Of a DNA stretch of 22,764 bases, positions 13,659-22,764 are shown piece after piece (within the stretch, counting starts at the first letter, position 1; each line of letters begins with the position of its first letter). The stretch is from a virus. The stretch spans positions 1 to 22,764 of IMG/VR virus record IMGVR_UViG_3300027974_000169; one strand, given 5' to 3'. The position numbers were made by a program, and so were the translations under genes. Below the pieces are notes generated by a model. It saw only the letters and a program-made list of their open reading frames with translations, was not told the DNA's origin and did not search any database.

Positions 13659-15590
13659 TTGAAGCCCAAATCGAAGCCCCCGCCTTTTATGCTATACGTT
13701 GATTTTGAAACTCGCAGTACATGCGACCTACGCGCCAAAGGCGTGTACAACTACGCGCAAGACGCAAGCACCGATGTGCTGTGCATGTCCTACGCTTTTG
13801 ATGACGATGAAGTCACAACGTGGGTGCCTACCCAGCCATTTCCCGAAAGCGTACGCAACTACACCGGCCAGATCAGGGCGCATAACGCCGCGTTCGAGCG
13901 TTTAATCTTTTGGTACGTACTACAAATAAATTTTAAGCTGGAGCAGTTTTACTGCACCGCAACACAAGCCCGCGCCAACTGTGCGCCTGGCAGTCTGGAG
14001 GACGTTGGCCGATTTGCTGGCGCGTCTATGAAAAAAGATCACAGGGGCGCGCAATTAATTCGCTTGATGTGCGTGCCGCCGTTTAAAGACTCGCCTGAAC
14101 TCATGGCCGAGATGATCCAGTATTGTGAGCAAGACGTCCGCGCCATGCGTGCAATTAGCAAAGCCATGCGTGACTTATCTGACGAGGAACTTACAGACTA
14201 TCACGTCAATGAACGCATCAATGATCGCGGCGTGTTGGTCGATGTGCCGCTATGCCAAGCAGCCGTAAAGTTTGCGTCTGACGAGCTAGTCGAGATCGAG
14301 CAGATTGTGCAAGAAGTCACCGGCGGTGCAATCGCCAGCGTCAGGTCGCCGCGTATGCGTGAATGGGTGCTTGAGCGCGTTGGCGAGCAAGCCAAGAAGT
14401 TGATGGAAAAAGATGGCAAGTATTCCATTGACAAAACAGTCCGTGCCAACCTTTTAATGATGGAGAATCCAGATGAAGTCCCAGCCGATGTACAAGAAGT
14501 TATCCAATGCGCCGACGACCTCTGGGCGTCCTCTGTGGCAAAGTTCAGCCGACTCAGCGGTCTGGCGGATGAGGAGGATCAACGAGTACGAGGAGCGTTC
14601 GTATTTGCTGGCGGCTCAGCAACAGGCCGCGCATCATCCTACGGCGCCCAAGTCCACAATTTCACACGCAAGTGCGCTGACGAACCCGAAGCCGCACGAA
14701 ATGCTATGGTCAGAGGGCACTCAATCGTGCCTCGGTATGGAAAGCGCGTTACCGATGTACTTAAAGGAATGCTCAGGCCAGCCCTTATCCCAGCCGAAGG
14801 CAAACACTTTGTCGTCGCAGACTGGGCGGCTATCGAAGCCCGCGTTAACCCGTGGCTGTCTGGCCGTGGGGGCGACAAACTCGAACTTTTCAGAACGGGC
14901 GAGGATGTTTACAAAGTTAACGCGGCCGCAACATTTAATGTTCGCGTGGCAGATGTCACCAAAGATCAAAGACAAATTGGTAAAGTTCAAGAGCTGGCCT
15001 GTGGGTTCGCTGGAGGCGTTGGCGCTTTCGCTGCTATGGGCAGGGCTTATGGCATATCTTTGCCAGAATCCGTCGCCAAGCGAATGGTGGACGGTTGGCG
15101 CCGTGCTAATACCTGGGCTGTTCCTTATTGGACGTCGCTTGAAGAATCCTACACCAGAGCGATGAGAAACAAAGGCCGCGAGTTTAAAGCTGGCCGTATA
15201 ACATATTTATTCGATGGGCAACACCTATGGTATGCCCTACCTTCTGGCCGCATTTTGTGCTACCCCTATGCCAAATTGGAATCGGACGGCATCAGTTATG
15301 CCAAAGCGGCATGGAAGCCTGCACAAGATGCAAAAGAATGGCCGCGTGCAAGGTTGTGGAAAGGGTTGGCGTGTGAAAATGTGACTCAGGCTGTCGCAAA
15401 CGATTTACTGCGGCATTCCTTGCGCCAACTTGATGACGTCGTGTTACACGTGCATGACGAGATTGTTGTTGAAACTGCTGACCCAAGCGCAGCAGAGAAT
15501 TTAAAGCGTGTGATGTGTACAGCACCAGCGTGGGCGCAAGGCCTGCCACTCGATGCTGAAGTTGAAACTATGAAAAGGTATGGCAAATGA
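13659..15590 (+). CDS. Family A DNA polymerase with 3'-5' exonuclease
   Basis: A 643-residue enzyme that copies the phage genome. Exonuclease motifs: Asp15-x-Glu17 in YVDFETRS, AHNAAFE (74-80) and YCEQDVRA (Tyr155, Asp159). Polymerase motifs: TGRASSYGAQVHNF (about 322-335), motif A VADWAAIEAR (Asp388, Glu393) instead of the usual DYSQIELR, motif B around Arg438-Lys442 with GKVQELACGFAGG, and motif C HVHDEIV (His599-Asp600-Glu601). There is no 5'-3' exonuclease domain. The start is TTG at 13659 or ATG at 13689; neither has a good ribosome binding site, and ATG would leave the exonuclease starting MLYVDFET. It is coupled to the primase by ATGA. Confidence 0.93.
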   Translation: MKPKSKPPPFMLYVDFETRSTCDLRAKGVYNYAQDASTDVLCMSYAFDDDEVTTWVPTQPFPESVRNYTGQIRAHNAAFERLIFWYVLQINFKLEQFYCTATQARANCAPGSLEDVGRFAGASMKKDHRGAQLIRLMCVPPFKDSPELMAEMIQYCEQDVRAMRAISKAMRDLSDEELTDYHVNERINDRGVLVDVPLCQAAVKFASDELVEIEQIVQEVTGGAIASVRSPRMREWVLERVGEQAKKLMEKDGKYSIDKTVRANLLMMENPDEVPADVQEVIQCADDLWASSVAKFSRLSGLADEEDQRVRGAFVFAGGSATGRASSYGAQVHNFTRKCADEPEAARNAMVRGHSIVPRYGKRVTDVLKGMLRPALIPAEGKHFVVADWAAIEARVNPWLSGRGGDKLELFRTGEDVYKVNAAATFNVRVADVTKDQRQIGKVQELACGFAGGVGAFAAMGRAYGISLPESVAKRMVDGWRRANTWAVPYWTSLEESYTRAMRNKGREFKAGRITYLFDGQHLWYALPSGRILCYPYAKLESDGISYAKAAWKPAQDAKEWPRARLWKGLACENVTQAVANDLLRHSLRQLDDVVLHVHDEIVVETADPSAAENLKRVMCTAPAWAQGLPLDAEVETMKRYGK

Positions 15591-17881
15591 ACTTTCTTGA
15601 ATTCCTAACGTCCCTTGCACCTGAGGGCGAGACAGCGCTTATCGTGCGTCAAAAACCCCAACTAAAAGACGGCGAAATGCAGTTCCATGCAGATGGCGCA
15701 ATCAAATGCACATGGCCTGCTATGTTGCCCACCGCACGCATCAAAGACGACTGGGCAATCTACGGCAACACCGCCAGCTTTATCATTGACCGCTTCAAAG
15801 ATGGCCACGTGTCGGCATCTGCCGCCAACTGCGAGTACGTGCTTGTCATGGTGCTTGATGACGTGGGCACCAAGGCCAAGATCCCGCCGCTTGCGCCGAC
15901 TTGGAAGATTGAAACGTCTGAAGGGTCATTTCAATGGGGCTATGTCTTTTCTGAGCAGCCTACAAAGGCCGACTTTAGCGCGGCCATTAAAGCGATTGCT
16001 GACGCAGGTTACACCGATGCTGGCGCTATCAATGCCGTGCGTAACTTTCGCCTGCCTAACTCGATTAACTTGAAGCCTGACCGCAATAATTTTGCCGCCA
16101 TTTTGCGTGAGTTTGAGCCATCACGTGAGTTTACTTTGCATGAAATTTGCCAAGCGCTTAACGTGACGCCCGCGCCTGCCGACTCTGTTGGCGTGCGCCC
16201 GATCCGTCTATCAGATGACGGCGCAGATGATGTGATGGCGTGGCTGTCTAGCCAAGGCCTGCTGTTGTCCAAGCCTAACCAAGAGGGCTGGGCTGGCGTG
16301 ATCTGCCCTAACTCTGGTGAGCATAGCGACGGCAACCCCGAAGGCCGTTACATGCCCGCCAACCGCGCTTACTGTTGCCTGCATAGTCATTGCCTTGAGT
16401 TTGACTCTGGCGTGTTCTTAAAGTGGGTGGCCGAGAATGGTGGCCCGAAACACGCCCCAGGTCTTCGTGATGAGTTACTTACCTTGGCGATGGATCAAGC
16501 CTTGTCTAAGTTGACGCCATCTGACATGTTTACAGACGATGCGTCTGCCGTGATCGCTGAAGTTGAGCGCAAGGAATTAGGCCGTATTGAAAAGTCGCAG
16601 TGGTTTGAACGCTTTGCATACATTCAAGACGATGAGTCTTATTTTGACATGCAAGATCGTCGTGAGGTGTCGCGCTCGACCTTTAACGCTTTATTCCGTC
16701 ACATCGCGTGCAAATCTATACATGGTAAAAACCCTAAGATTGAGGCATCTATTTGCTTTGATGAGAATCGTCAGAAACATGGCGCGAAGGCACTTGTTGG
16801 CATAACGTATGCCGCAGGTGAGTCGGTTATTGTGGCGCGCGATGGTGACCTGTATGGCAATCGCTGGCGTGATGCCCGCCCTGTCGTGGGCACGGGTGAT
16901 GTGACCCCTTGGCTTGAGCATTGCAAGACGCTTGTGCCTGACGAGGCCGAGCTAGAACACATCTTCAATGTGATGGCCTTTAAACTGCAACACCCAGAAA
17001 TTAAAATCAATCACGCCGTTCTGCATGGTGGCGATCAAGGTTCAGGCAAGGACACCATGTGGGCACCTTTTATTTGGGCAGTCTGTGGTGAACACCTCAA
17101 GAATCGTGGCCTCTTGGACAATGACACTATGTCGTCTCAGTTTGGTTATGCCCTTGAGTCTGAAATTTTGATCTTGAATGAGTTGAAAGAGCCTGACGCC
17201 AAAGAGCGCAGAGCGTTAGCCAATAAACTCAAGCCAATCATTGCCGCCCCGCCTGAGATGCTGACAGTTAACCGCAAGGGTCTGCATCCCTATCAAATGG
17301 CAAACCGCGTGTTCGTGTTGGCGTTCTCGAATGACCCCGTGCCAATTAGTTTGGACTCGCAGGATCGCAGGTGGTTTTGCGTATGGTCGCACGCCCCGCG
17401 CATGTCGCCCCAAGCTGCTGAGAAAATGTGGAAGTGGTACAAGTCGGGCGGCTTTGCGGCTATCGGTGGCTGGCTTGCATCCCGTGATGTCTCTGCGTTT
17501 AATGCAGGTGCCGCGCCTATGATGACCGAGTTCAAAATGAATCTTGTCGAGCATGGAATGAGCATGGCCGAGTCGTACCTTGTCGAACTTATGCGCGGGC
17601 GTCTGGGCGAGTTTTCCAAAGGCGTGGTGGCGTCTCCCTTCCATGCGCTGTGTGATCGCCTTGCAGGTGCCGCGCCCAGTGGCGTGAAGGTGCCACAACC
17701 TGCCTTGTTGCACGCGCTCAAAGAAGCCGGATGGATTGACTGCGGACGTCTGAAGTCTCGTGAGTTTGACAACAAGAAACACATCTTCTGCGCTCCTGAG
17801 ATGCGTGATGTGAGCAAGTCTGAATTAAGGCGTCTCGTTGAAGATGTCCCCACCCCTATTTCTGTGAGGTTAGTAAAATGA
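15587..17881 (+). CDS. Primase-helicase: AEP/RepB-like primase fused to a DUF5906-type P-loop ATPase
   Basis: A 764-residue protein. The N-terminal third has a primase-polymerase-like pattern: VLVMVLDDVG (85-94, Asp91-Asp92 as metal ligands) and VRNFRLPNSINLK (151-163), as in RepB-type archaeo-eukaryotic primases. A Cys/His cluster at about 240-269 (VICPNSGEHSDG then YCCLHSHCLEF) looks zinc-binding. The C-terminal part is a superfamily 3/D5-like ATPase: Walker A GGDQGSGKDT (481-490), Walker B with LILNELKE (Glu532) and sensor VFVLAFSNDPVPI (575-587). It would prime and unwind at the fork. Coupled to the polymerase by ATGA, with AAGG upstream. Confidence 0.87.
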   Translation: MNFLEFLTSLAPEGETALIVRQKPQLKDGEMQFHADGAIKCTWPAMLPTARIKDDWAIYGNTASFIIDRFKDGHVSASAANCEYVLVMVLDDVGTKAKIPPLAPTWKIETSEGSFQWGYVFSEQPTKADFSAAIKAIADAGYTDAGAINAVRNFRLPNSINLKPDRNNFAAILREFEPSREFTLHEICQALNVTPAPADSVGVRPIRLSDDGADDVMAWLSSQGLLLSKPNQEGWAGVICPNSGEHSDGNPEGRYMPANRAYCCLHSHCLEFDSGVFLKWVAENGGPKHAPGLRDELLTLAMDQALSKLTPSDMFTDDASAVIAEVERKELGRIEKSQWFERFAYIQDDESYFDMQDRREVSRSTFNALFRHIACKSIHGKNPKIEASICFDENRQKHGAKALVGITYAAGESVIVARDGDLYGNRWRDARPVVGTGDVTPWLEHCKTLVPDEAELEHIFNVMAFKLQHPEIKINHAVLHGGDQGSGKDTMWAPFIWAVCGEHLKNRGLLDNDTMSSQFGYALESEILILNELKEPDAKERRALANKLKPIIAAPPEMLTVNRKGLHPYQMANRVFVLAFSNDPVPISLDSQDRRWFCVWSHAPRMSPQAAEKMWKWYKSGGFAAIGGWLASRDVSAFNAGAAPMMTEFKMNLVEHGMSMAESYLVELMRGRLGEFSKGVVASPFHALCDRLAGAAPSGVKVPQPALLHALKEAGWIDCGRLKSREFDNKKHIFCAPEMRDVSKSELRRLVEDVPTPISVRLVK

Positions 17882-18108
17882 ATCGTGAAGACCTAGATTA
17901 TGAAGGCCTGCTGTTTGCTGATGGCTTTGATGAGGCCATCATTGGCGTCGAAGAACGCGCGGGCGTGGTCGCCTATGACATTGACAAGATCATTGAGATT
18001 TTGATGCGTGAGATGACTGAAGACGAGGCCGTTGAGTATTTTGAATTCAACATTTTTGGCGCGTACGTGGGCGAGAAAACGCCTGTGTATATAAAAATTG
18101 TGAGATAA
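17878..18108 (+). CDS. Small conserved acidic phage protein
   Basis: A 76-residue protein with pattern LLFADGFDEAIIGVEERAG, then DIDKIIEILMREMTEDEAVE and EYFEFNIFGAYVGEKTPVYI. I recognise this arrangement from many phage genomes, normally next to replication genes, annotated as hypothetical. ATGA overlap with the primase-helicase and GAGG upstream support expression in the same operon. It is acidic with a beta-alpha-beta feel. It is the final gene of the rightward block. The role is unknown; a replisome accessory function is inferred from its constant company. Confidence 0.75.
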   Translation: MNREDLDYEGLLFADGFDEAIIGVEERAGVVAYDIDKIIEILMREMTEDEAVEYFEFNIFGAYVGEKTPVYIKIVR

Positions 18109-18132
18109 AAAAAAGCCCCTGTGAAGGGGCTT
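18107..18132 (-). terminator. Intrinsic terminator of the leftward small-gene operon
   Basis: Read on the minus strand, AGCCCC-TTCACA-GGGGCT forms a 6-bp GC-rich stem (one more A-T pair possible) with a 6-nt loop and is followed by eight T (18114-18107). In plus orientation the hairpin has no U-tract, but it lies at the stop codon of the last rightward gene, so it separates the converging operons. Confidence 0.85.
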
Positions 18133-18149
18133 GTGAGGTGTGGCAACTG

Positions 18150-18209
18150 CTACAAATCCAAAAGAATCGCCAGCAGTGCCGCCATTATAACAGCGATTAA
18201 TAGAATCAT
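18150..18209 (-). CDS. 19-residue hydrophobic microprotein
   Basis: ATG 18209 overlaps the upstream TGA (ATGA) and the frame ends at TAG 18152-18150. The whole peptide is MILLIAVIMAALLAILLDL, a single membrane helix with one acidic residue at the end. It is the last possible gene before the terminator. The overlap and fully hydrophobic composition argue for a real translated peptide; its tiny size means chance cannot be excluded. It could act as a membrane-disturbing or regulatory peptide. Confidence 0.45.
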   Translation of the reverse strand: MILLIAVIMAALLAILLDL

Positions 18210-18397
18210 CGCATCATTGCTTCCATCGCGCCCCTGTTGAGCAATCTGCGGGCTTCCTGCCCTTCTGCCTGCGCCCGTTTGTATTCGTGTTCGTTGGCTT
18301 TTCCGCGCTCATGCTGATAACCTAGCTCAACGTAATAGTGCTCGGTATAGGTGAGAGGGCGGAAGGGCGCCAGTGCCTCAGCGATAACTTGATTCAT
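18206..18397 (-). CDS. Hypothetical small protein
   Basis: A 63-residue protein starting MNQVIAEALAPFRPL. The middle (TYTEHYYVELGYQHER) is aromatic, and the C-terminal half is a charged amphipathic helix (EYKRAQAEGQEARRLLNRG). ATGA overlaps link it to the genes on both sides. Unlike most of its neighbours it is close to neutral or basic. No recognised domain; function unknown. Confidence 0.6.
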   Translation of the reverse strand: MNQVIAEALAPFRPLTYTEHYYVELGYQHERGKANEHEYKRAQAEGQEARRLLNRGAMEAMMR

Positions 18398-18591
18398 GGC
18401 AGTAAATCCCTCACGTTTGTGGCCACATTGGCGATCTTTTGGGGGTCACCTTCCTCGATGGCGTCAAGCAGAATATAAATGGCGTGTTCAAGGTCACTGA
18501 CGCGGGCAAATAGGTCGCCCACACCTGTGAAACCTTCAGCATAGGCGATGCGCTCGGCATCAGCGGGAGGCAGTTTAATTAAGTTGATCAT
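18394..18591 (-). CDS. Hypothetical small acidic protein
   Basis: A 65-residue protein starting MINLIKLPPADAERIAYAE, with a GFTGVGDLFARV turn and a helical DLEHAIYILLDAIEEGD segment. It has ATGA overlaps at both ends. Acidic and helical, without catalytic motif. Membership in the coupled chain is the main evidence that it is a gene. Confidence 0.6.
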   Translation of the reverse strand: MINLIKLPPADAERIAYAEGFTGVGDLFARVSDLEHAIYILLDAIEEGDPQKIANVATNVRDLLP

Positions 18592-18755
18592 TTTTCCAAG
18601 CCTTCCAAAAATAAAATTACATCGTCGATGCAGTCGCCGATGGTGATGTCGGTGCCGTCGCTGTCTTTAGGTTTGTTTTTGATGCGTGCTGATAAGGCTT
18701 CGCGTATGTCGTACATATCGCAAAGTGCAGACGATAGGTCGTTTTGATTAATCAT
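18588..18755 (-). CDS. Hypothetical small acidic protein
   Basis: A 55-residue protein from ATG 18755 (MINQNDLSSALCDMYDIREA), two bases after the stop of the upstream gene. An in-frame ATG at 18770 would add MGLLK and overlap that gene by 13 nt; GGGA upstream favours 18755. The centre is Lys/Asp-rich (NKPKDSDGTDITIGD) and the end is a helix DDVILFLEGLE. Two Cys residues. Function unknown. Confidence 0.58.
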   Translation of the reverse strand: MINQNDLSSALCDMYDIREALSARIKNKPKDSDGTDITIGDCIDDVILFLEGLEK

Positions 18756-18757
18756 TT

Positions 18758-18973
18758 TTAGCAGTCCCATTCTTCGAGTGTTAATTTAAAATTGCAAAGA
18801 TCTTTATGAGTGTCGTTGACGTGGGCGCGGACAAGATTGCACACGGCCTCAATCAATTCTTGATCTATCAAGTCGTTCATTGTGAACGTGCCGAACGGCT
18901 CCGCGTCCATGCCGTTGATGTCGAAGGCGTTGCCTCGGTGAAATGTAATAACTGTTCTGTCAAACGTGCTCAT
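18758..18973 (-). CDS. Hypothetical small acidic protein
   Basis: A 71-residue protein starting MSTFDRTVITFHRGNAFD, with a strand-rich N-terminal half (DAEPFGTFTMNDLI) and a helical C-terminal half (LIEAVCNLVRAHVND). GAGGAGG lies upstream and its start overlaps the preceding TGA. Acidic overall; two to three Cys with no obvious metal pattern. No family recognised. Confidence 0.6.
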   Translation of the reverse strand: MSTFDRTVITFHRGNAFDINGMDAEPFGTFTMNDLIDQELIEAVCNLVRAHVNDTHKDLCNFKLTLEEWDC

Positions 18974-19122
18974 TTTTGCAAATCCTCCTCAATAACCGCC
19001 ATCGCGGTGCAAATGTCGTTCCACTGTTCGTCATAGTCGGGGTCGCCTTCGGGTATCAGGTCGGCTCGATAGGCTTCCAAAGCTGCCCACACAATGTCAA
19101 TCTGTTCTTTTATATCGTGCAT
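18970..19122 (-). CDS. 50-residue acidic protein
   Basis: Starts MHDIKEQIDIVWAALEAYRA at ATG 19122 with a strong AAGGAG 9 nt upstream and ends with an ATGA overlap. The middle is IPEGDPDYDEQWNDI and the end is a helix AVIEEDLQK. It overlaps the preceding gene by 13 nt in another frame. Strongly acidic and mainly helical; no recognised domain. It fills a stretch that would otherwise be an unexplained gap in the operon. Confidence 0.58.
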   Translation of the reverse strand: MHDIKEQIDIVWAALEAYRADLIPEGDPDYDEQWNDICTAMAVIEEDLQK

Positions 19123-19406
19123 TTAAACGTCTCCTTGATGTAGTTGTTGGCCTCGGCCTCAGTGTCAAAGCCTAAATATTCGCCATCTTCATTTAGCCAT
19201 TCGTCGGTGGTGTTGCCGTAAATAACCCAAATGTCGCCTGATTGCTCAACATGCCAACAGTTCGGGTCGTTAAAGCGTTCCATGTATAGCTCGTGAACAA
19301 TCTTTTTGCAGGTGGTGTCGTTCTCGCCTGTCAATCGTTCAAGTTCTGCCGGATGGTTTTCAATCAGCAAGTCGCTGATCTTGGTTTTTAATTCGTCATG
19401 TGTCAT
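19110..19406 (-). CDS. Hypothetical protein, 98 residues
   Basis: Starts MTHDELKTKISDLLIEN at ATG 19406, supported by GGGAGG upstream and an ATGA overlap; a longer frame to 19454 would give an Arg/His-rich extension inside the upstream gene and is rejected. The C-terminal half (WHVEQSGDIWVIYG, GEYLGFDTEAEANNYI) has the look of a small alpha/beta domain with the aromatic and Glu-Ala pattern seen in many small phage proteins. Acidic. Function unknown. Confidence 0.62.
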   Translation of the reverse strand: MTHDELKTKISDLLIENHPAELERLTGENDTTCKKIVHELYMERFNDPNCWHVEQSGDIWVIYGNTTDEWLNEDGEYLGFDTEAEANNYIKETFKCTI

Positions 19407-19576
19407 TCGGTGGCCTCCCAAATGTCTTCGATGTGCCAATCGTCGGGGTCGCAATGCGTGTCGTACACACTGCCGTCCAACTGTTTGGCTATCTCATAAG
19501 CTTCGTCTAAACTGTTGGCCTCAACTTCGGTTTGACACATGGCTTGATAAGATGCCCTCACAATGAATTTTTTCAT
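19403..19576 (-). CDS. Small protein resembling the DpnD/PcfM type
   Basis: A 57-residue protein starting MKKFIVRASYQAMCQTEVEA. It has a strand, then NSLDEAYEIAKQL helix, then a strand and HIEDIWEA ending. This layout resembles the small DpnD/PcfM-like family, whose function is unclear; I recall it only by pattern. GAGG upstream and ATGA on both sides. It was not visible as a long reading frame because of its size. Confidence 0.58.
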   Translation of the reverse strand: MKKFIVRASYQAMCQTEVEANSLDEAYEIAKQLDGSVYDTHCDPDDWHIEDIWEATE

Positions 19577-19749
19577 GCTGTAACCTCGTTTAATACAGTG
19601 TTTAAATATTGCTCAGCGCGCCTTAATTCGTCTTCGCTGATGTCCAAATCAGTGCTAATAAGTTCAAGCAGGGTCATATCTCCCAAGTGCAGGTGACCAT
19701 GGCCTAAAGCATGACGCGCGATTTCTTTAATTAAAAGTTCTGTGTTCAT
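19573..19749 (-). CDS. 58-residue acidic helical protein
   Basis: Starts MNTELLIKEIARHALGHGHL at ATG 19749, with GGAG upstream and ATGA overlaps at both ends. The His-rich HALGHGHLHLGD segment (13-24) could bind metal. The rest is helical (DISEDELRRAEQYLNTVL). Function unknown. Confidence 0.57.
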   Translation of the reverse strand: MNTELLIKEIARHALGHGHLHLGDMTLLELISTDLDISEDELRRAEQYLNTVLNEVTA

Positions 19750-20054
19750 TTTGTTGTCTCCATATATGCGGCAATGTCTTCCTCGCCTGCGTAATCAAGG
19801 AACATGTGTCGGGCTATTTCGTGCCAATTGACGTTCTGCAGGAACGCTAGGGCGTAATCCACAGCAATGTTGCCATCACCCCCGCCCGCCTCATAAATCA
19901 GCGTTTCTGCATGTTCTTTTAAGTAGTCTGCAAGCCAATCCATCATGTTGGCTTGATCATCTGAAAAGTGGTCGAACGGATCAAACCCGTCGAAAAGTTC
20001 CAAGTTGACGCGCCACGTTTCGTAGTTAGTCCAGCCGTTGTATTTGTTATCCAT
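19746..20054 (-). CDS. Conserved small protein with NYETW motif (DUF7249-like)
   Basis: A 102-residue protein starting MDNKYNGWTNYETWRVNLEL. The GWTNYETW motif followed by an acidic, aromatic-rich helical body is common in phage and plasmid accessory regions, and I recall it as a DUF7249-type family without assigned function. Very acidic (HFSDDQANMMDWLADYLKEH, DYAGEEDIAAYME). AGGGGG lies 6 nt upstream, overlapping the end of the 27-residue gene. The acidic surface makes DNA mimicry, as in ArdA-like antirestriction proteins, a testable idea only. Confidence 0.7.
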   Translation of the reverse strand: MDNKYNGWTNYETWRVNLELFDGFDPFDHFSDDQANMMDWLADYLKEHAETLIYEAGGGDGNIAVDYALAFLQNVNWHEIARHMFLDYAGEEDIAAYMETTK

Positions 20055-20057
20055 TTT

Positions 20058-20141
20058 TTACCCCCTATAAGTTAAGAAAAAGGCAAGCATGAGCGCAAAG
20101 GCAATTGCCGCCAAAATATCGTAAATGTCTTCTTTTTTCAT
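20058..20141 (-). CDS. 27-residue single-pass membrane microprotein
   Basis: ATG 20141 overlaps the upstream TGA, with GGAG upstream; TAA is at 20060-20058. The product starts MKKEDIYDILAAIAFALM and has one membrane helix (about 8-24) followed by TYRG. The charged start and positive end predict an N-in or N-out single-pass peptide. The gene end carries the ribosome binding site of the next gene. Function unknown. Confidence 0.5.
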   Translation of the reverse strand: MKKEDIYDILAAIAFALMLAFFLTYRG

Positions 20142-20296
20142 TTCTTTAGGCTCCGATTGAGTTGTTGCAAGTAGGTGAGAATGGGCACCGCGTCATAGCG
20201 CGCGGTGTTGATCTTTGGAATGATTGAGGCCTGGAAGGTTTCAAACAATGCCGCGCCTGTGTGTTTGTCTACAATGACCCATGATGCGGTTTTCAT
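20138..20296 (-). CDS. 52-residue conserved phage protein (WVIVDKxTG type)
   Basis: Starts MKTASWVIVDKHTGAALFET at ATG 20296. The strand-turn-strand start WVIVDKxTGxAxFET followed by INTARYDAVPILTYLQQLN is a pattern I have met in many phage genomes as an unannotated small protein. ATGA overlaps on both sides. Its own Shine-Dalgarno is weak, so expression probably relies on coupling. Function unknown. Confidence 0.62.
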   Translation of the reverse strand: MKTASWVIVDKHTGAALFETFQASIIPKINTARYDAVPILTYLQQLNRSLKK

Positions 20297-20535
20297 TTGT
20301 AATCAAAAATAGGCGCTGAAACAATGGAAAACATGCGCTCGATGATTTCAGGGTTATAGGCAACAGGCGCGCCCTTGATGCGGATGATGAACAAGCCATC
20401 ATCTAGTTCAACAGTCAGATCGGGGTCAGTTTCAGAATAGACCAAGTAGATGTCTTGATCGTTGAAGCGGCTTTGAGCCAGCAAGTCGATGACAGAATCA
20501 AGGATTCCATCTAAAGAATAGTCATTACGATTCAT
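20293..20535 (-). CDS. Hypothetical acidic protein, first gene of the leftward small-gene operon
   Basis: An 80-residue protein starting MNRNDYSLDGILDSVIDLL, with AAGGA upstream. Helix, then strands (DIYLVYSETDPDLTVELDDG, FIIRIKGAPVAY), then a C-terminal helix: a compact alpha-beta domain. Acidic. As the first gene, with a leader of about 50 nt behind a near-consensus promoter at 20593-20620, it should be strongly expressed early. No family recognised. Confidence 0.62.
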   Translation of the reverse strand: MNRNDYSLDGILDSVIDLLAQSRFNDQDIYLVYSETDPDLTVELDDGLFIIRIKGAPVAYNPEIIERMFSIVSAPIFDYK

Positions 20536-20592
20536 AATTTTCCTTTACTTGAGGTTAGGTTTTACCTTTGCACTGTTTGCGCGGGTGAATGT

Positions 20593-20620
20593 ATTGTAAA
20601 ACAATTCTTTGCATTGTCAA
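20593..20620 (-). promoter_or_regulatory. Strong sigma70-type promoter of the leftward small-gene operon
   Basis: On the minus strand TTGACA (20620-20615), a perfect -35, is followed after 16 nt by TACAAT (20598-20593), one base off consensus. Transcription should start near 20586. It lies 15 bp from the left 13-bp repeat, so proteins bound to the repeat array could modulate it. Confidence 0.75.
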
Positions 20621-20634
20621 CACTTATTTTATAG

Positions 20635-20647
20635 GGGTAAACCCTAA
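20635..20647 (+). repeat. 13-bp direct repeat, left copy
   Basis: GGGTAAACCCTAA, identical to 21032-21044. It contains the dyad GGGT/ACCC. It ends two positions before the first 9-mer of the array, so the two copies mark the array edges. Confidence 0.75.
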
Positions 20648-20648
20648 G

Positions 20649-21031
20649 TGTGGACAATAGATGGATAACGGGTGGACACTGTATAAATGAAAGTTTGACC
20701 CACGTGGAATGTCAATAAATACGCGGTTTGCAAAGAAGTGTGGACAATGTGGACAATCAATTTCTAGTAACTAAAATTAAAGATTTTGATATAAGGGTTA
20801 ATACCTATACAGTGTGTCACGCCAAGTTGACGCCTCGTCCGCCACCGATTTTAAATCGACGTCCACATTGTCCACATTGTCCACAAATGCCCACGCCAAC
20901 ATGCCCACGCAAAAAACAAAAAAGGAAATGTGGACAAGTTGGACAATGTAAAAACTGATTGTCCACATTGTCCACAAAGTTATGGCCATGCGACTTGAAA
21001 CAGACTGTCCACATTGTCCACATGACCCACA
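20649..21031. repeat. Iteron array of DnaA-box-like 9-mers (TGTGGACAA / TTGTCCACA)
   Basis: Exact copies as TGTGGACAA at 20649, 20739, 20748 and 20929, and as TTGTCCACA at 20868, 20877, 20959, 20968 and 21014. Near copies are at 20671 (GGTGGACAC), 20859 (ACGTCCACA), 20938 (GTTGGACAA), 21005 (CTGTCCACA) and 21023 (TGACCCACA). Within clusters the units abut with a strict 9-bp period and no spacer. Clusters 20929-20946 and 20959-20976 face each other across 12 nt as an imperfect 18-bp dyad. TTGTCCACA differs by one base from the E. coli box TTATCCACA. The binding protein, host DnaA or a phage factor, is unknown. Confidence 0.8.
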
Positions 21032-21044
21032 GGGTAAACCCTAA
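21032..21044 (+). repeat. 13-bp direct repeat, right copy
   Basis: GGGTAAACCCTAA in the same orientation as 20635-20647 and immediately adjoining the last degenerate 9-mer, which ends at 21031. The exact match over 13 bases, 397 bp apart, is unlikely to be chance in a region of this size. Confidence 0.75.
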
Positions 21045-21059
21045 TAGGATTCGGCTTGA

Positions 21060-21088
21060 GGGGAGGGGGTAGGGCCGACGGCAAAGGG
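21060..21088 (+). other. G-run tract, possible G-quadruplex
   Basis: Four G runs of 4, 5, 3 and 3 bases (21060-21063, 21065-21069, 21072-21074, 21086-21088) with loops of 1, 2 and 11 nt. The long last loop makes folding uncertain. It lies between the repeat array and the AT-rich stretch. Confidence 0.35.
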
Positions 21089-21128
21089 CCAACAAAAACG
21101 GATGGGTCACAAACAATTTTTTTTCTTA

Positions 21129-21141
21129 TAGCAATTTGCTA
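21129..21141. promoter_or_regulatory. 13-bp palindrome upstream of terS, possible operator
   Basis: TAGCAATTTGCTA is a perfect palindrome with a central T, set in a T-rich stretch 72 bp before the terS start. It could bind a dimeric regulator. I found no convincing promoter for terS beside it. Confidence 0.4.
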
Positions 21142-21213
21142 ACTGCCTTCAGTTTTTAATTTTTTATTTTTTGTTGTAAACTCACAGCCACGTGCAAACT
21201 GCATGGAGAACAC

Positions 21214-21657
21214 ATGTTCCATTCGATTCCATTTACACCGCGCAAGGTCGAAGCAACAGAGTCGCGCTTGAAGGCGGTATATGACGCCGCAAGGCTAGGC
21301 CTTAAAGGCGACGCGCTTGCGTTGGCCGCAGGCATGTTGCCTACCGAGTACCGGCAACTTACGCAGCTTGACCCCGTGGTCGAGATCGCCGCGCAAAAAG
21401 GCAAAGCAGACGGCGAGATAGAACTTTCCAAAGTGATGCATCAAGCCGCGCTGAACGGCGACTCCAAGGCGGCGTTAGAAATCCTTAAACATCAACACGG
21501 CTGGGTGGCCAAGCAAGCTATATCTGTCGAAGTCGATCAGCGCATCTCAATCACTGGCGCGCTGGCCGAAGCGCAAAAGCGCATACTGGATGTGATTGAT
21601 GTTGAAGAAGTAAACACCCTACAAATACAAAATGCAATCGACCATATACAGCGCTGA
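21214..21657 (+). CDS. terS: Terminase small subunit
   Basis: A 147-residue protein with GGAGA before the ATG. The N-terminal part contains a helix-turn-helix-like block (LKAVYDAARLGLKGDALALA then AGMLPTEYRQLTQLDP), the middle is helical (KADGEIELSKVMHQAALNGD, SKAALEILKHQHGW), and the tail is acidic-helical for oligomer contact. Small terminases bind the packaging site on DNA and regulate the motor. It overlaps terL by 26 nt. The call rests on layout and the following clear terL; the candidate origin or pac-like region is directly upstream. Confidence 0.82.
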   Translation: MFHSIPFTPRKVEATESRLKAVYDAARLGLKGDALALAAGMLPTEYRQLTQLDPVVEIAAQKGKADGEIELSKVMHQAALNGDSKAALEILKHQHGWVAKQAISVEVDQRISITGALAEAQKRILDVIDVEEVNTLQIQNAIDHIQR

Positions 21658-22764
21658 AGACGAACAAGAGTTGATGGCCAGATTATGGGCGCCAGCGATC
21701 AAGGACAACCCGTTGGCGTTTGTTATGTTCGCGTTTCCTTGGGGGCAACCTGGCACGCCGCTGGAACATTTCAAAGGCCCACGCAAATGGCAGCGCGAAG
21801 TCCTCACTGAAATAGGCAACCACATCAAACAGAACCAAGGCAAAGTTGACTTTGACACCCTGCGACACGCCGTGTCATCTGGCCGTGGTATTGGCAAGTC
21901 GGCGTTAGTTAGCTGGATCACGATCTGGATGCTGACCACGCGGATTGGCTCGACGACCATTATTTCGGCTAACAGTGAATCACAGCTAAGGTCAGTCACA
22001 TGGGCCGAGATAACCAAGTGGATAGCGATGTCGCTTAACAGCCATTGGTTTGAAGTCTCGGCAACTAGGCTGATGCCTGCCAAGTGGTTGACTGAGTTGG
22101 TTGAGCGCGACCTGAAGAAAGGCACGCGTTACTGGGGCGTGGAAGGCAGACTTTGGTCAGCGGAGAATCCCGATGCGTACGCTGGCGTACACAATTACGA
22201 CGGCGTGCTGGTGGTGTTTGACGAAGCGTCTGGTATTGACGACAGCATCTGGGCGGTGACATCTGGCTTTTTTACCGAGAACACACCTAACCGTTTCTGG
22301 ATGGCGTTCTCTAACCCACGGCGTAACACTGGGTATTTCTACGAAGCGTTTAATTCAAAGCGTGAGTTCTGGACTACAAAAGTAGTAGACGCCCGCACGG
22401 TCGAGGGAACGGACAAGCAGGTCTACCAGCAGATCATCGACGAGTACGGCGCTGACTCATCACAAGCGCACGTCGAGGTGTATGGTCAGTTCCCATCTGA
22501 AGGCGACGATCAGTTCATATCGGCTAATCTTGTGGACGATGCGATGAAGCGGCCTAAGTACAAAGACGAGACAGCGCCTATCATCATCGGCGTAGACCCT
22601 GCGAGGTTTGGCGCGGATGCAACAGTTATTGCTGTGCGGCAAGGGCGCGACATTATCTCGATTCAGCGCCATCGGGGCGACGACACCATGACTGTCGTTG
22701 GCCATGTGATCGAAGCGATTGAGGAATACAAACCCGCGCTGGTCGTGATTGACGAAGGCGGATT
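21632..22764 (+). CDS. terL: Terminase large subunit (partial, cut by the window end)
   Basis: 377 complete codons are visible from ATG 21632. ATPase: Walker A SGRGIGKS (83-90), Walker B VVFDEAS (194-200) and coupling motif SNP (227-229). Nuclease (RuvC-like): Asp322 in IGVDPARFGAD and Asp374 in VVIDEGG; the final acidic residue must lie beyond the window. It packages DNA into proheads and cuts the concatemer. The start inside terS has a weak ribosome binding site and is probably coupled; ATG 21674 is an alternative but would drop the conserved-looking YSAEDEQELMA segment. Confidence 0.93.
   Translation, partial: MQSTIYSAEDEQELMARLWAPAIKDNPLAFVMFAFPWGQPGTPLEHFKGPRKWQREVLTEIGNHIKQNQGKVDFDTLRHAVSSGRGIGKSALVSWITIWMLTTRIGSTTIISANSESQLRSVTWAEITKWIAMSLNSHWFEVSATRLMPAKWLTELVERDLKKGTRYWGVEGRLWSAENPDAYAGVHNYDGVLVVFDEASGIDDSIWAVTSGFFTENTPNRFWMAFSNPRRNTGYFYEAFNSKREFWTTKVVDARTVEGTDKQVYQQIIDEYGADSSQAHVEVYGQFPSEGDDQFISANLVDDAMKRPKYKDETAPIIIGVDPARFGADATVIAVRQGRDIISIQRHRGDDTMTVVGHVIEAIEEYKPALVVIDEGG

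Follow-up and report, generated by a model that had tools for sequence, protein, structure and literature searches.

The iteron array upstream of terS is very probably the site where an uncultivated lake phage starts its replication, and the protein that reads it appears to be the primase-helicase that the phage itself encodes, not host DnaA. We regard it as highly likely that a relative of the P22-like podoviruses has its iteron origin here, and a self-loading primase-helicase would bind the array through the wing of its C-terminal winged helix and fire replication there. The DNA studied (the window) is the whole stretch of 22,764 nucleotides, positions 1-22,764 of the IMG/VR virus record IMGVR_UViG_3300027974_000169, a virus and probably a fragment. 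Its virion genes comprise terminase and DNA-ejection/tail proteins, and its relatives have podovirus-like genomes of 36-39 kb.

The array lies in the intergenic region 20536-21213, between a leftward run of small ORFs (the last at 20293-20535) and a terS-like ORF that begins at 21214. The nine exact copies of TTGTCCACA counted in the first-pass annotation were all located, at 20649(-), 20739(-), 20748(-), 20868(+), 20877(+), 20929(-), 20959(+), 20968(+) and 21014(+), against a mean of 0.03 and a maximum of 1 in 2000 Markov-1 simulations of the intergenic region. Its "at least five near copies" was generous by about one: four lie within 20649-21031 (21005 with one mismatch; 20671, 20859 and 20938 with two), another at 20614 (one mismatch) falls just outside that span, and two further matches with two mismatches, at 20878 and 20969, coincide in part with exact copies read from the opposite strand. 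Exact 8-mers recur at a distance of 9 bp 17 times (0.02 expected, simulation maximum 2), and 9 bp is the sole spike among spacings 5-24, besides three repeats at spacing 14. TGTCCAC occurs 11 times in the array region and once elsewhere in the window, and the units are concentrated in this one region. The array is real. The mapped copies also confirm that units abut in pairs and that orientation changes from cluster to cluster, and most units are tandem at 9 bp; a strict 9-bp rule goes too far, as the copy at 20649 is solitary with no tandem partner and relatives use 8 or 10 bp. From left to right the clusters run -, --, AT-rich segment, degenerate copy then ++, - then degenerate copy, ++ and ++, as follows (iterons by repeat search):

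20649 to 21022, no strand: iteron array (putative phage origin), unit TTGTCCACA, nine exact copies and 17 tandem-9 8-mer matches
20649 to 20657, minus: outer left iteron, single
20739 to 20756, minus: left iteron pair, 9-bp tandem
20757 to 20820, no strand: AT-rich segment (73% A+T against a window mean of 51%), flanked by inverted iteron sets and a candidate site for melting
20859 to 20885, plus: right iteron triplet, first copy degenerate (ACGTCCACA)
20929 to 20946, minus: inner reversed pair, second copy degenerate (TTGTCCAAC)
20959 to 20976, plus: iteron pair
21005 to 21022, plus: iteron pair, first copy CTGTCCACA

Two ORFs within this region, 20817-21116 (-) and 20798-20989 (-), carry repeated VDN and CGQ peptides; they arise from the 9-bp repeats and are not genes. 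The genes that matter for the reading of the array are these:

13659 to 15590, plus: family A DNA polymerase (PolA), replisome partner (PF00476; phrog_17, E 7e-91)
15587 to 17881, plus: primase-helicase of 764 aa with DUF5906 as its helicase part (Pfam PF19263, E 7e-13), proposed self-loading initiator
17735 to 17791, plus: wing beta-hairpin of the C-terminal winged helix, codons 717-735 (GRLKSREFDNKKH), proposed iteron-reading element (covariation peak 713-736; AlphaFold strands 717-722 and 731-735)
18206 to 18397, minus: 63-aa ORF (o63) between primase and array, distinguishing B arrays from A/C arrays, though only within the close clade
21214 to 21657, plus: terS-like ORF, right boundary of the array, adjoining TerL, without covariation with the array
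21632 to 22764, plus: large terminase (TerL), running off the window (phrog_2, E 2e-30)

The primase-helicase gene ends about 2.8 kb before the array (17881 to 20649), and the terS-like ORF and TerL overlap. By sequence the primase-helicase matches the NrS-1 primase in the PDB (6k9e, E 1e-7), its PHROG match is DNA primase, and the Pfam scan returned DUF5906 only; o63 gave no Pfam match. At the other end of the window, a tail-associated protein (387-1241, +; phrog_34170), part of which resembles a short tail fibre protein, has a C-terminal SET domain (PF00856, E 6e-10) that is unusual for a phage.

A distant blastn search of the intergenic region against phage records gave zero matches, and several hundred loci were collected from virus contigs (mostly fragments, without cultured hosts) by scans with the 9-mer pair, TerS and primase. 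Many of these relatives have no TGTCCA upstream of terS but another tandem word, and some of them are 80-93% identical to the window in TerS. Class A arrays consist of TTGTCCACA at 9 bp pitch, class B of ATGACCCAA at 9 bp and class C of ATGAC[T/C]CACA at 10 bp; wider sampling added class D (TGACAATT, 8 bp), classes E (TGACCTAA) and F (TGACCGAA) and further words such as CTTACA, with classes D-F defined after the arrays had been seen. Across these types the pitch is thus 8, 9 or 10 bp, no system-wide 9 bp, and the earlier argument that a 9-bp pitch would wrap proteins around the helix is set aside. The anatomy is conserved: the cluster order '<<', AT-rich, '>>' is kept across A, B, D and E, and most relatives with the conserved layout have an AT-rich 50-mer at about the same distance from terS, for every unit type except some C arrays. 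Five of 113 arrays stayed unclassified, a few are mixed and some C arrays have few repeats. The first-pass annotation had proposed searching related phages for the 9-mer between the small-gene operon and terS, and had named an array absent or scrambled in close relatives as evidence against an origin. To the letter the latter is what occurs, since the 9-mer itself is often replaced; however, the array stays in position with its inverted clusters and AT-rich segment, and when the word changes, so does the protein presumed to read it.

Two near-identical relatives illustrate this replacement. L133 shares PolA (99%), TerL (99%), the ssb-like protein (100%) and DUF2800 (99%) with the window, while identity in the primase drops to 76%, with the divergence in the C-terminal two thirds, and its array is of class C with 10-bp ATGACCCACA; at the DNA level the differing stretch runs from 17091 to 21018, from inside the primase to the array. 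L134 (PolA 100%, TerL 98%, primase 91%) has a class B array of ATGACCCAA, and its primase differences cluster at residues 600-640 and 720-760. The A/B switch is seen in this close clade and again in a clade about 79% identical.

Such replacement bears directly on the proposal that the phage captures host DnaA at boxes of the actinobacterial form. TTGTCCACA is one base off TTATCCACA, and some A-type relatives (L282) have TTATCCAC units, both of which would suit a host DnaA-box origin. Sister phages, however, carry ATGACCCAA, TGACAATT, TGACCTAA or TGACCGAA at the same place, none of them a DnaA box, and the change of word tracks residues of the phage primase-helicase. Because the unit changes among sister phages we reject DnaA boxes as the basis of the array, TTATCCACA-like boxes are not conserved in the relatives, and capture of host DnaA is left with very little probability.

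Comparison of A and B phages column by column (99 primases) found seven primase positions with disjoint residues, 719, 722, 723, 725, 728, 733 and 741, and none in PolA, the ssb-like protein, DUF2800, TerS or TerL. The corresponding wing motifs are GR[LI]KSR..D.KKH in A, GRVAS.D..SKK in B and GLLKSRAHTTKK in C. When array similarity (repeated 6-mers, both strands) was compared with identity in 16-residue sliding windows along PolA, TerS, TerL and the primase, a single peak appeared at primase residues 713-736 (rho 0.66), with all values outside it below 0.36 and medians of 0.15-0.16. The covariation is specific to the wing: residues 719-733 follow the array with rho 0.68 among 113 phages, and a partial Mantel value of 0.67 is left after removing the primase N-terminal part, the helicase part, TerL and TerS (reached in 0/2000 permutations). 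Leaving out the loci fetched by the 9-mer gives 0.59, partial 0.56. The residues that track the array best are 723, 728, 725 and 722. K723 against other residues matches CAC-type against other arrays in 108/108 classified phages, a rule formulated on the same data as counted. On a tree of TerL and primase 1-280, arrays switched between CAC-type and other at least 22 times, and K723 agreed with the array in 14/14 independent pairs (p = 0.00012). Within class A, R719 goes with GTCCACAA over GTCCACAT by 31:3, compared with 48:105 and 61:109 otherwise. The first-pass annotation had offered as its second alternative an origin-like array for a phage initiator, naming the primase-helicase as a candidate for footprinting, and the covariation with the wing supports that alternative.

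The same comparison speaks to packaging. The array adjoins terS and its position is conserved, as would be expected of a pac or cos site read by TerS or TerL, yet neither terminase protein follows the unit: whole-gene rho is 0.19-0.22 against 0.68 for the wing, with no separating columns. We reject a TerS/pac site because the array does not covary with the small terminase, and a packaging site of any of these kinds is extremely improbable.

Within the close clade, o63 too distinguishes B arrays from A/C arrays (rho 0.62), which made a test of hitchhiking necessary. The array could be an operator for divergent promoters of the small-gene operon and terS, possibly involving o63, with the primase covariation merely carried along on an exchanged block. 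Its position between divergent units fits this, as does the block exchanged in L133. Hitchhiking, however, predicts a signal rising toward the array, and the signal falls past residue 736; o63 fails to separate A from C arrays, and 56 distant phages lack it altogether and have the strongest wing peak (0.78, against 0.08 at residue 703 and 0.18 at 745). The concentration of the units in one region also argues against an operator. Simple linkage to the array is ruled out as the cause, because the wing signal drops on both sides and persists without o63. We consider an operator array very unlikely, if somewhat less so than DnaA capture, and o63 is either a hitchhiker or an accessory factor.

AlphaFold models of residues 301-764 and 639-764 place a C-terminal winged helix at the end of the protein, with its third helix at 704-713 and a hairpin at 717-735 (pLDDT about 90 at the winged helix; the larger model averages only 69). 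The covarying residues lie in the wing and the third helix (PALLHALKEAGW) is nearly invariant, so that on models and alignments together iteron specificity probably sits in the wing. Foldseek matched the larger model to the helicases of NrS-1, poxvirus D5/E5 and SaPI5 PriRep1 (7ola/7pds); the isolated C-terminal domain gave only weak winged-helix matches (best E 0.07).

Loci L261-L303 were fetched by primase alignment alone and typed by wing before their arrays were inspected, and they mostly fit the prediction. Twelve of 14 A-type wings with a readable region had at least three GTCCAC, and TGACCCAA was found in 0/14; L267 and L303 had few GTCCAC and are weak, and L302 combines an A-type wing with a mixed array of TGACCCAC units. 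GR[VI]AS wings came with TGACCCA arrays (4/4) and C wings with C arrays (2/2). Five GRLAS wings were pooled with B by rule, yet their TGACAATT arrays form a separate class. ASRD[YH]TT wings were seen in L268 and L324, and CTTACA units are independently common to both. In a Rhodoferax MAG (L329) an A wing accompanies 12 GTCCAC, the array as predicted. In MW202483 (L260), whose primase is 54% identical, the wing is divergent (CFAPELSTKRH) and the repeat region is of a GTTTAC type; this is consistent with reading by the wing, though the phage is too far for confident alignment.

The array, its conserved anatomy and its covariation with the wing are observed; physical binding, ring assembly, melting and origin activity are steps that we infer, and they would most likely proceed as follows. 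The DUF5906 primase-helicase would bind the 9-mers as double-stranded DNA through its C-terminal winged helix, taking base specificity mainly from wing hairpin 719-733 (K723, R725 and D728 in the window phage). Protomers on the inverted clusters would then form helicase rings that face the AT-rich segment (20757-20820), open it and are loaded onto it, after which fork unwinding, priming and synthesis by PolA would begin at the array with no need of DnaA or of a loader. During evolution, wing and iteron are often exchanged or re-coded as a pair. GC skew in ten near-complete relatives was shallow and inconsistent and supported an origin neither way. Tandem 9-mers also make up the Cox boxes of phage P2, and the array might by that likeness serve partition, Cox-like excision or some other accessory function. 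Among the genes of the 22.8-kb fragment we recognised no integrase, Cox or partition gene, nor any Cox/excisionase gene with an attachment site among the scanned ORFs, and the covariation points to the primase-helicase; of the readings considered, an accessory site has the smallest chance of being correct.

Read as an iteron origin, the array can be set beside several known systems. In PICI origins an AT-rich region is always flanked by two sets of iterons, a layout said to be known from no other replicon (PMC6092414), and the window array shares it. SaPI/PICI Rep, which in many cases also contains a primase, is a self-loading AAA+ helicase (SF3/D5-like), and DUF5906, PHROG and Foldseek link the window protein to this type. 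SaPI Rep and Cch2 recognise iterons by the C-terminal domain (PMC7581432), and in the window group it is the C-terminal wing that covaries with the iterons. The PICI ori, however, lies directly downstream of rep, whereas the window array stands 2.8 kb from the initiator gene and next to terS, and a PICI is a satellite without virion genes, while the window phage has its own terminase and tail genes; the window element is not a PICI. The window group further differs in units of 8-10 bp, often head to tail, with many types in one phage group and specificity apparently mapped to the wing. Cch2 of SCCmec, a D5-type helicase, binds short AAGTG direct repeats with its C-terminal domain (PMC7581432), much like the proposed wing reading, but it has no fused primase, uses three short repeats and works with CCPol-MP. 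In the PLEs of Vibrio cholerae, RepA/ori modules are swapped between close relatives at least twice, the DNA-binding domain covaries with the origin, and replication is experimentally shown to be cognate-only (PMC8263062). PLE RepA, however, belongs to the RepA_N proteins, has neither helicase nor primase and binds semi-palindromes of about 30 bp; the window group has an unrelated initiator (its Pfam scan revealed no RepA_N domain) and at least 22 switches. NrS-1 provides the closest solved helicase part and is also a phage-encoded ring-shaped primase-helicase, but the recognition sequences described for its genome are just two 8-nt sites (PMC7102993), without an iteron array. The alpha protein of phage P4 with ori/crr is a fused primase-helicase replicating from a cognate site (PMC6092414), although P4 is a satellite and the likeness is drawn by description, not sequence.

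Mobile elements commonly encode self-loading initiator helicases, but the way in which these recognise their origins is poorly understood; more than 100 initiators paired with their origins, among which at least 22 switches have occurred, here narrow recognition to about 15 residues. Compared with open-licence papers, a natural specificity code mapped to the wing would be new, as far as alignments suggest it, and an earlier description of wing-based iteron recognition is possible. Perhaps the wing is a compact, re-programmable DNA reader in which residues 719, 722, 723, 725 and 728 set the iteron word and sometimes the pitch (8, 9 or 10 bp). Co-infecting phages, satellites or nucleases directed at the origin might then drive joint changes of word and wing, so that a single phage population would come to contain several replication incompatibility groups; we advance this tentatively, as a possibility that may well prove wrong. 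The switches themselves suggest that phages with near-identical genomes could be unable to replicate each other's DNA, with a bearing on co-infection, satellites and origin-targeting nucleases. The pairing of wing with 9-mer yields directly testable predictions, and metagenomic phages gain a sequence-based origin call.

The space around the arrays holds other elements in some relatives. Distant relatives such as L063, L023 and L084 have palindromic repeats (GTTAGTnnnnACTAAC), another repeat type adjoining the iterons, between array and terS. In L261 and L262 a tandem GCCTGCCT tetranucleotide-type repeat (16 overlapping 8-mers) adjoins the class A array upstream of terS. MW202483 has a gene annotated 'dnaa protein helix-turn-helix' slightly downstream of its primase (L260:7083-7379). 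An ORF resembling, by eye, an HNH homing endonuclease lies between the class B array and terS in L141, and MW202483 also has an annotated homing endonuclease upstream of terS.
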